Assembly (NCBI RefSeq): GCF_021249345.1
Contig: NZ_CP089588.1
Location: 2,170,001 to 2,234,000 of the forward strand
Reading direction: 5' to 3'
DNA length: 64,000 nucleotides
DNA from: Halobacterium wangiae
GTDB lineage: Archaea; Halobacteriota; Halobacteria; Halobacteriales; Halobacteriaceae
Shown: positions 48,251 through 51,296 of the stretch, one piece after another
Layout: every line of letters starts with the position of its first letter
How positions within the stretch are numbered: position 1 is the first letter of the stretch
The notes under the pieces: generated by a model
What the model was told of the DNA's origin: nothing
Seen by the model: only the letters and a program-made list of their open reading frames with translations
Database searches by the model: none
Program-made: the position numbers and the translations under genes

Positions 48251-49155
48251 GCTTCCAGAATCTCGTCGGCCTCCGTGGCCGGCACCCGCAGCGTCCCGTC
48301 GAGGGTCTCGAGGGCCGTCCCGCCGACCTGCGGCGCGCCCCCGTCCGCCGCACGTACCCGGACCGTGCCCGGTCGGTCGACGAAGTGTCCCTGTTCGAAC
48401 GTCATCTCCGCCGTCATGTCCCCGCCGAACGCCTCGTAGTGGTGTAGATACGCGCCAGCGGCACCGCTCGCGGTGCCGGTGACCGGGTCCTCCTCGACGC
48501 CGAGCCCGGGCACCCACGCCCGCCCGTGGAGCGTCGAGTCGCCGTCGAGCGCGTCGAACGTGAACGCGTAGACGCCAGCCGCGTCAACGTCGTCGGCGAG
48601 CGCCGCGACCGCGTCGAAGTCCGGGTCGGCGCTCCCGAGGTCCGAGAGGTACGTGATGGGGACGACGAGGAACGGGAGGCCGGTGTCCGCGACGGCCAGC
48701 GGCAGGTCGTCGCTGGCGCCACGCAGCGCCTCCACGTCCAGCCCCGTGGCATCCGCGACGCGCTCGTAGCTCAGGTCGACGTCCCGAACCTCGGGCGGGT
48801 TCTGCGTCATCCACACCGTGCCGTCCGCGGCGACCTCGACGTCGAGGACGCCGACGTTCGTCTCCAGGCTGTACTCGCCCGCGTCGACGACGCCGTCGGC
48901 GAACAGGTGGGCGTGGCTCGCGACGGTCGCGTGCCCGCAGAGGTCCACCTCGGCCGTCGGCGAGAAGTAGCGGATGCGGCGGTCGGCGTCCCCGCTCGGC
49001 CGGAGGAACGCCGTCTCGCTCGCGCCGAGTTCCGCCGCGATGGCCTGCATCTGGTCGTCGGTCAGGTCCCCGGCGTCGGGCACCACGCCCGCCGCGTTCC
49101 CCGCGCAGGGCTCGTCGGTGAACGCGTCCACCAGCAGCGCCCGCGTCTCTGTCAT
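48247..49155 (-). CDS. PhzF-family isomerase
   Basis: A 302-residue diaminopimelate-epimerase fold protein of the PhzF group. ALLVDAFTDEPCAGNAAGVV opens it, the catalytic Glu is E47 in LGASETAFL, and DLCGHATVASHAHL and DPVTGTASGAAGAYL are the two halves' phosphate/carboxylate loops. PhzF of pseudomonads isomerises a phenazine precursor; archaeal members have no established substrate. A 73-base piece of this gene (49005-49077) is copied in the gap between the two usp genes downstream in coordinate order. Confidence 0.9.
   Translation of the reverse strand: MTETRALLVDAFTDEPCAGNAAGVVPDAGDLTDDQMQAIAAELGASETAFLRPSGDADRRIRYFSPTAEVDLCGHATVASHAHLFADGVVDAGEYSLETNVGVLDVEVAADGTVWMTQNPPEVRDVDLSYERVADATGLDVEALRGASDDLPLAVADTGLPFLVVPITYLSDLGSADPDFDAVAALADDVDAAGVYAFTFDALDGDSTLHGRAWVPGLGVEEDPVTGTASGAAGAYLHHYEAFGGDMTAEMTFEQGHFVDRPGTVRVRAADGGAPQVGGTALETLDGTLRVPATEADEILEA
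49005..49077. repeat. 73-base segment of phzF repeated at 50189-50261 (first copy)
   Basis: This internal part of phzF (codons about 27-51, around the catalytic Glu) matches 50189-50261 over 73 bases with three differences and no gaps. It is the parent copy because it lies in an intact gene. Confidence 0.9.
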
Positions 49156-49213
49156 GGCCCGGGGTTCGCGCTCCTCCGTGTTGCGTGTTTTCCTCCCGGC
49201 ACCCGCGCGGGTG

Positions 49214-50089
49214 TCACCGCTCGTCGGTCGGCCGTCGGACCGTCAACACCGGCACCGGCGACGTGCGCACGAGCTGTTCGGTGACGCTCCCGAGGACGTA
49301 CCGGTCGAACCCGGTGCGACCGTGCGTACCCGCGACGACCAGGTCGACGTCGTTGTCCTTCACGTAGGACCGGATCTCGCGCTGTATCGACGTGCCGACC
49401 TCCACCGACTCGAACACTGTTTCGACGCCCGCGTCCCTCGCGACCGTGGCCGCGTCGGCGACGACGTCGCGCGCGTTCTGTTCGAGCGCGTCCTCGACCA
49501 TCTCGATGCGGGCGTCCACGCCGAGGCCCGTGATGTCGATGACCGACAGCAGGTGGACCGCGGCGTCGTCCTCGGTGGCGACGCCGGCACCCACTTCCAG
49601 GGCGGCCCGCGCGGTGTCGCTGCCGTCGGTCGGCACGAGCACGTTCTCGAAGGGGTAGCGGTGGGCGTCCTCGTTTGGCTTGATGGTGAGCACGGGGACG
49701 TCCGACCGCCGGAGGACGCGCTCGGTCGTGCTCCCGAGCAGGAAGCGCTCGAGGCCTCGGCGCCCGCGGGTCGGCATCGCGATCACGTCGACGCCGGTCT
49801 CCTCCGCGTAGTCGAGGATGGTCCGGTACGGCTCGCCGCGTCGTACCTCGGTGGTGGTGTCGACGCCGCGTTCGTCCGCGCGCTCGGCGACGTCACGGAC
49901 GAGCTGTTCGCCGCGCTCTTCGAGCGTCTCGACCAGGCCAGTCTGGCGCTCTACGTTGCTCCGCGTCGTGTCCGCGACGTTGAGGACGTGGACCGTCGCG
50001 TCGTGGCCGGCTGCTATCTCGAGCACGTAGTCGAACGCTGCCTCCGCACAGTCGCTCCCGTCGGCCGGGAAGAGAATCTGGTCGAACAT
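49214..50089 (-). CDS. Tandem-domain universal stress protein (first copy)
   Basis: A 291-residue protein of two fused UspA domains. Domain 1 (1-145) starts ILFPADGSDCAEAAFDYVL and ends at the ATP-loop MPTRGRRGLERFLLGSTTERV; domain 2 (about 152-285) starts VLVPTDGSDTARAALEV and has GTHGRTGFDRYVLGSVTEQL. The G-x-x-G-x9-GS ATP signature is clean in domain 2, altered in domain 1. About 65% identical by eye to the next gene. The promoter carries an inverted repeat over the TATA position. Role: general stress tolerance, partners unknown. Confidence 0.92.
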   Translation of the reverse strand: MFDQILFPADGSDCAEAAFDYVLEIAAGHDATVHVLNVADTTRSNVERQTGLVETLEERGEQLVRDVAERADERGVDTTTEVRRGEPYRTILDYAEETGVDVIAMPTRGRRGLERFLLGSTTERVLRRSDVPVLTIKPNEDAHRYPFENVLVPTDGSDTARAALEVGAGVATEDDAAVHLLSVIDITGLGVDARIEMVEDALEQNARDVVADAATVARDAGVETVFESVEVGTSIQREIRSYVKDNDVDLVVAGTHGRTGFDRYVLGSVTEQLVRTSPVPVLTVRRPTDER

Positions 50090-50099
50090 ACCTGTAGTA

Positions 50100-50116
50100 T
50101 TGTGTCCAGTACACAA
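50100..50116. promoter_or_regulatory. Inverted repeat upstream of first usp gene
   Basis: TTGTGT-CCAGT-ACACAA is a 6+5+6 dyad. On the minus strand TTTTGTGT forms the TATA-like element, about 28 bases before the ATG, so the dyad covers TATA to transcription start. The second usp gene keeps the ACACAAA half and the downstream CTGTG but has lost the other arm. Confidence 0.45.
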
Positions 50117-50188
50117 AACTGTGCCCGTCGTTCCCTGCCTACCGGGACAGTCAGTCAGCGTGTATCGACCGGGACGGTGCGGCGAGCA

Positions 50189-50261
50189 GGAGCGCCGTCT
50201 CGCTCGCGCCGAGTTCTGCCGCGATGGCCTGCATCTGGTCGTCGGTCAGGTCCCTGGCGTC
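50189..50261. repeat. phzF fragment between the two usp genes (second copy)
   Basis: Matches 49005-49077 in 70 of 73 positions. It ends with GGCGTC exactly where the stop codon of the second usp gene begins (50260-50262), so the junction is fused to the paralog's end. The corresponding stretch beyond phzF's 5' part is missing, as if about 120 bases were deleted after a tandem duplication of phzF-usp. Confidence 0.85.
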
Positions 50262-51132
50262 ACTCGTCGTCCGTCGGCTCCCGGACGGTCAACACGGGAA
50301 CCGACGACGTGCGGACCAGAGACTCCGCGACGCTCCCGAGGACGTACCGGTCGAACCCGGTGCGACCGTGCGTCCCGACCACGACGAGGTCGACGTCGTG
50401 GGCCCGGACGTAGGACCGGACCACACCGCTGACGGACGACCCGAACTCGACGCTCTCGGACACGGTGTCGACGCCGGCGTCCGTCGCGAACGCCGCCGAC
50501 TCCGCCACGATGCGGTTCGCGCTCTCCTCGAAGACCTCCATGGCGATCCTGGCGTCCACGCCGAGACTCGTGACGTCGACGACGGACAGGAGGTGGAGCG
50601 CCGCGCCGGCTTCGTCGGCGACCCCCACGCCCGCCTCGAGCGCGGCGCGCGCGCAGTCGCTCCCGTCGGTCGCCACCAGCACGTTCTCGAAGGGGTAGTC
50701 GAAGTCGGAGGCGCCGTCCGGTTTGAGCGTGAGCACGGGGACGTCAGACCGGCGGACCACGCGCTCGGTCGTGCTCCCGAGCAGGAAGCGGGCGAGGCCA
50801 CGGCGCCCGCGGGTCGGCATCACGATCACGTCGACGTCCGCGGACGCTGCGTAGTCGCTGACGACGCGGTACGGGTCGCCTCGCAGCACGTCGGTGTGAG
50901 TGGCGACACCTCGTTCTCGGGCGCGCTCGGCCGCCTCGTCGACGATCTGCTGGCCCCGTCGTTCGAGGGCACCGACGACGTCCTCCTGCCCGCCGACGGC
51001 GCTGCGCGTCGTGTCCGCGACGTGCAGGAGGTGGACCGTCGCGTCGTGGGTGGCGGCAACGTCCAGCACGTAGTCGAAGGCGGCCGTCGCCCCGGCGCTT
51101 CCGTCGGTCGGGAACAGTATCTCCTCGAACAT
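50260..51132 (-). CDS. Tandem-domain universal stress protein (second copy)
   Basis: A 290-residue paralog of the preceding gene with the same two fused UspA domains: ILFPTDGSAGATAAFDYVLDVAA, MPTRGRRGLARFLLGSTTERV, VLVATDGSDCARAALEAG and GTHGRTGFDRYVLGSVAESL. ATG at 51132; the open frame extends 55 codons upstream without homology. Differences cluster in the N-terminal helices and the second-domain helices. It arose by tandem duplication, supported by the phzF fragment between the copies. Confidence 0.92.
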   Translation of the reverse strand: MFEEILFPTDGSAGATAAFDYVLDVAATHDATVHLLHVADTTRSAVGGQEDVVGALERRGQQIVDEAAERARERGVATHTDVLRGDPYRVVSDYAASADVDVIVMPTRGRRGLARFLLGSTTERVVRRSDVPVLTLKPDGASDFDYPFENVLVATDGSDCARAALEAGVGVADEAGAALHLLSVVDVTSLGVDARIAMEVFEESANRIVAESAAFATDAGVDTVSESVEFGSSVSGVVRSYVRAHDVDLVVVGTHGRTGFDRYVLGSVAESLVRTSSVPVLTVREPTDDE

Positions 51133-51261
51133 GCTAGTGGTGTCGCGTCCCGCACACAAAGCTGTGCGCGCCGCTCCCGGCCCGTGAGGTCCGAGCAGTC
51201 CGCGAAGTCGGTCGGGTGGAGGACGTCGGGAGGCGTCTGCGACGCCGGACCGCCTGTAAAC

Positions 51262-51269
51262 GGTTAAGT
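51262..51269 (+). promoter_or_regulatory. TATA-like box of PRTase-MTAP genes
   Basis: GGTTAAGT lies about 30 bases before the ATG at 51297. Confidence 0.45.
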
Positions 51270-51296
51270 GGCGACGCACGCGACTTCCTACACGCA

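Follow-up and report, generated by a model that had tools for sequence, protein, structure and literature searches.

Why does a short piece of phzF stand almost intact between two universal stress protein (usp) genes that are themselves far diverged? The original prediction read this layout as the outcome of a tandem duplication of phzF and usp followed by deletion of most of the phzF copy, and called on gene conversion or constraint, for example as an RNA, to account for the freshness of the fragment. We analysed the locus within a window of 64 kb (64,000 nucleotides; positions 2170001-2234000 of genome G000, a single contig of 3.1 Mb), and the gene content and relatives suggest that the host is a haloarchaeon. 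On the minus strand, usp2 is followed by the 73-nt copy of phzF, a spacer, usp1 and phzF (Table 1), and a phosphoribosyltransferase gene (here hpt, from 51297) is divergent from usp2. Both usp1 and usp2 belong to the universal stress protein family, with two PF00582 domains per protein, as had been predicted.

Table 1. Features of the phzF-usp locus, with positions in the window.
Feature	Positions	Strand	Evidence
phzF, PhzC-PhzF family, intact, 302 aa	48247-49155	-	Pfam PF02567, E=2e-68; ortholog with conserved neighbours in congeners
Source segment inside phzF, codons 27-50 (DAGDLTDDQMQAIAAELGASETAF)	49005-49077	-	Direct repeat; position in phzF; comparison with 13 relatives
usp1, two Usp domains, 291 aa	49214-50089	-	Pfam PF00582, two stretches
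usp1 upstream region	50090-50138	-	Close to the start codon, similar to the usp2 upstream region (81% over 36 nt) and to those of usp genes in congeners
Probable hydrolase C-terminus remnant	50139-50156	-	14/21 bases vs G005; position-restricted control P=0.019
Probable internal remnant of alpha/beta-hydrolase lipoprotein gene, fused to phzF copy	50159-50197	-	LLLAAPSRS vs FLLAAPSRP
Ten-base seam common to phzF and hydrolase	50188-50197	-	Sequence match
Extra 73-nt copy of phzF codons 27-50	50189-50261	-	Three derived changes: two missense, one silent (phzF frame)
usp2, two Usp domains, 290 aa	50260-51132	-	Pfam PF00582, two stretches

Part of phzF is repeated between usp1 and usp2

The recurrence of a 73-base piece of phzF was confirmed: the copy and its source lie on the same strand and are identical at 70 of 73 bases, with exactly three differences. 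The direct repeat extends over 49004-49077 and 50188-50261 (96% identity). Since it is the only pair of at least 40 bases at 88% identity or more within the window, and the next-best match to this stretch in the whole genome covers 31 bases at 90%, the repeat is not due to chance. The usp2 stop codon (TGA, minus strand) occupies 50262-50260 and the repeat overlaps its GA, and thus the claim that the fragment ends exactly at this stop codon was right to within 2 bases.

Comparison with phzF of 13 relatives (12 congeners and G018) showed that all three differences are derived on the fragment side, and the bases seen in the fragment are absent from phzF of G000 and of every one of these relatives. 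One change alters a Phe codon that is invariant in 14 of 14 phzF genes, one alters another residue, and one leaves the protein unchanged; one of them creates GCA, with a third base that is rare in these genes (phzF GC3 94%). With all three changes derived and none seen in 13 phzF genes, which are small numbers, the substitutions look released from coding constraint.

The interval between hpt and phzF varies within the genus

phzF with the same neighbours is present in all 12 congeneric genomes. A second copy is absent from all 12, each giving one match (phzF itself) against two here, and the comparison with related genomes thus went against a fragment conserved at this locus. The contents of the interval differ from genome to genome. 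In G003, G005 and G008, a DUF3887/alpha-beta-hydrolase lipoprotein gene lies directly upstream of a single usp, and G008 has an additional small gene ahead of phzF; in G002, G004, G006, G010, G011 and G012, the hydrolase gene stands alone; and in G001, G007 and G009, just 125-350 bases separate hpt from phzF. A usp pair beside phzF is found only in G000 among the 13 genomes of the genus. Tandem usp paralogs (PF00582) of halophilic archaea are likewise two-domain genes that are patchy and labile between species, but the position next to phzF sets this pair apart. A scan of genome contigs with usp2 returned distant relatives only. G001, the closest relative by phzF (89% amino acid identity), has neither usp nor hydrolase at the locus, and yet 44 bases at the hpt side and 40 bases at the phzF side are 98-100% identical between G000 and G001, with full identity over the 40 bases upstream of phzF. 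Because the contents vary among congeners and G001 lacks these genes despite near-identical edges, the interval is very labile.

Across the 13 congeneric genomes, the interval (49156-51296 in the window) appears as a hotspot of gene gain and loss between conserved neighbours. In G001 (L040 7214-7563), the interval contains about 260 bp of palindromic DNA from a dispersed repeat family. At E<=1e-6, matches of this family number 24 in G001 and 18 in G000; most have 70-80% identity, and both orientations often occur at one place. The family possibly represents a REP-like or non-autonomous mobile element. In G006, the match to phzF (L051 2512-3411) falls into three pieces that do not all share one frame, as would result from frameshifts, and the gene may be a pseudogene or reflect errors of a draft assembly.

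The fragment is probably younger than the usp pair

usp1 and usp2 are 68% identical in amino acids (about 65% by eye in the original prediction) and 76% identical in DNA. At fourfold-degenerate sites 53 of 136 differ (0.39), compared to 0.16-0.25 for five gene pairs between G000 and G001 (0.24 for phzF), and judged by these sites the usp split is therefore older than the G000-G001 split; the nucleotide-level alignment that had been proposed for dating the duplication thus points to an old split. Fourfold divergence from the G008 usp is 0.40 for usp1 and 0.41 for usp2, and for phzF it is 0.37-0.42 between G000 and G008, G003 and G005 (0.37 for G008).

Under a neutral model, the probability of three or fewer changes in the 73 bases of the fragment is 0.03-0.17 at 0.08-0.12 changes per site, approximately one branch since the G000-G001 split, and 3e-4 to 4e-6 at 0.2-0.27 changes per site, the branch length that the usp split implies, with fourfold sites serving as an imperfect neutral yardstick. 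Since three changes are few, a fragment as old as the G000-G001 split is only weakly disfavoured (P 0.03-0.07). The best reading of these values is that the fragment is young, copied around the time of the G000-G001 split or later, and not as old as the usp split. The mismatch in timing noted earlier is thus real: the usp copies differ at 0.39 of fourfold sites and the fragment at 3 of 73 bases, which is not what equal age would give, although later conversion could mask equal age. It appeared as a paradox because the fragment and the usp pair were assumed to have arisen together, and it disappears because the two run on different clocks. The usp genes are much older copies, either old paralogs or with one taken from a relative, and uninformative on the age of the fragment. 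A recent copy is the simplest account, and preservation need not be invoked.

It is also conceivable that the usp pair and the fragment both go back to an old tandem duplication, and that gene conversion by phzF kept refreshing the fragment. Gene conversion is efficient in polyploid haloarchaea (PMC8223754, PMC11276520), and a clade of usp1 with usp2 was not rejected (p-AU 0.35). However, the best protein tree places usp1 outside usp2 and the G003, G005 and G008 genes (bootstrap 92, SH-aLRT 84), which would demand repeated losses, each restoring a clean hydrolase-usp-phzF order; the fragment occurs in 0 of 12 congeners; and conversion over an island of 73 bp is possible but not needed. We regard this history as quite improbable. 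The earlier model therefore stands in part: local duplication and deletion made the fragment, but a single event for fragment and usp pair is not supported, with 12 of 12 congeners lacking the fragment. A mosaic phzF with an imported 5' end was also considered and rejected, as the 5' divergence is lower against G001 and mildly so against G008, for which conservation is enough.

A function of the fragment is not needed

The high identity to phzF is the one observation that would favour selection on the fragment, be it as a regulatory RNA, a decoy or a short peptide (an ATG-started frame of 27 codons, MQAIAAELGASETALLLAAPSRSIHAD). Against this, its fold is no better than that of shuffled sequences (z -0.6 and +0.4), it has no Rfam match, it is absent from 12 of 12 congeners, and its types of change, unseen in 13 related phzF genes, are those expected once constraint is lifted. 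The 27-codon frame spans the seam and is without a relative for comparison. The copy has the same sense as phzF, and RNA transcribed from the usp2 side would thus be unable to pair with phzF mRNA; the orientation, the fold and the Rfam search all speak against a regulatory RNA such as the one proposed earlier. Selection of this kind is extremely improbable, and an old duplicate that conversion has held near-identical to phzF, or that is selected as a sense RNA titrating a phzF regulator, is hardly less so. Since neither an RNA family nor an unusual fold nor conservation was found, neither function nor gene conversion seems to be needed for the fragment. Its substitutions match neutral rates, the outcome for which no function had been said to be needed, and three fragment-specific changes fit a recent neutral copy.

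Possible microhomology at the joints and a probable hydrolase remnant

At the usp2 side, the copy starts in the GA of TGA; usp1 and the usp genes of G005 and G008 end in TGAC, phzF reads CGAC at this point, and a 3-base GAC overlap may represent the microhomology. At the hydrolase side, CGGCG(T/C)TCCT closes the phzF match, and the bases that follow match the hydrolase gene of the congeners. The probable seam of about 10 bases common to phzF and hydrolase genes is CGGCGTTCCT, and several congeneric hydrolase genes contain GCGTTCCTGCTCGC. When the stretch including the seam was compared with hydrolase genes, its score was equalled in 5 of 1600 stretches taken at random from the window (0.3%); for the spacer without the seam, 7% of controls reached the score at the DNA level and 5% with a protein profile, which is not significant. 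Near usp1, GAC TGA CTG TCC CGG TAG resembles the end of the G005 hydrolase gene (GGC TGG CTG TCC GAG TGA); it keeps the reading frame, and its distance from the usp1 start codon is close to that expected. The seam stretch, the C-terminus-like end and the congeneric gene order together make it probable that a decayed hydrolase gene with an internal deletion precedes usp1, and no more than probable because the match is short and the spacer alone is not significant. No hydrolase remnant was detectable upstream of usp2 (P=0.66), and no orthologous hydrolase was found elsewhere in G000 or G001, where the best identity was about 40%.

usp1 (50090-50125), usp2 (51133-51170) and the congeneric usp genes have a common upstream motif close to the start codon. 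It reads about GTTTTGT-N-TGTCAC in G003, G005 and G008 and TTGTGTACTGGACACAA, a near palindrome, at usp1, and it is possibly a promoter or a regulator site.

Proposed origin of the fragment

We consider it likely that the fragment is a recent, lineage-specific scar, in which about 73 nt of phzF were filled in at a microhomology joint and then drifted neutrally. On the G000 branch, at about the time of the split from G001 or later, a DNA break or replication accident would have struck between usp2 and the hydrolase gene that was decaying ahead of usp1. Repair would have brought in a copy of about 73 nt from phzF, at a distance of 1.2 kb, with short common words at the joints (possibly GAC at the usp2 stop and about CGGCGTTCCT at the hydrolase side), and the copy would since have drifted without constraint. 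The fragment has the traits of a neutral remnant, being a copy of a gene that is still intact at another place in the genome (96% to phzF), lineage-specific and not conserved at the locus, and its anatomy is what microhomology-guided repair or template switching would leave. Rearrangement junctions in prokaryotes carry partial gene duplications and gene remnants. The truncated copy of a neighbouring gene seen here, without a start and drifting, shows no essential difference from such remnants.

The haloarchaeon Haloferax volcanii, which has no Ku, is known to repair DNA by end joining at microhomologies of 3-5 bp (PMC2700283, PMC7776575). The scars described there (PMC2700283) are alike in their short-word joints, small DNA losses and independence from Ku, but they are simple deletions with 3-5 bp, whereas here we infer a templated piece of 73 nt with one seam of about 10 bases.

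A rather unlikely alternative is a recent partial tandem duplication of a unit made of the 3' part of the hydrolase gene, usp and the 5' part of phzF. phzF codon 50 would have joined the hydrolase gene at CGGCGTTCCT, a second deletion, reaching to the usp2 stop, would have taken away the beginning of the phzF copy, and the usp copies would differ because one of them had been swapped with that of a diverged relative or acquired from it. One such unit explains the order of usp with its upstream region, phzF piece and hydrolase piece, and usp1, usp2 and the G008 usp are about equidistant at fourfold sites, as expected for an imported allele. On the other hand, an extra replacement step is needed, no hydrolase remnant was detected upstream of usp2, and the 40 bases upstream of phzF that equal those of G001 force the foreign stretch to stop within usp1 or the intergenic DNA. 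Templated filling and partial tandem duplication would both make the fragment a scar.

Taken together, these results suggest that the fragment is an ordinary, decaying genome scar, which would look near-intact on account of its recency and not of a function. It has little significance beyond the phzF-usp locus, which may preserve the trace of a templated joint at microhomology in a haloarchaeon. The locus illustrates clearly how a recent copy that lies next to old paralogs can pass for conserved non-coding DNA, and here the polarity of changes in relatives settles the matter.
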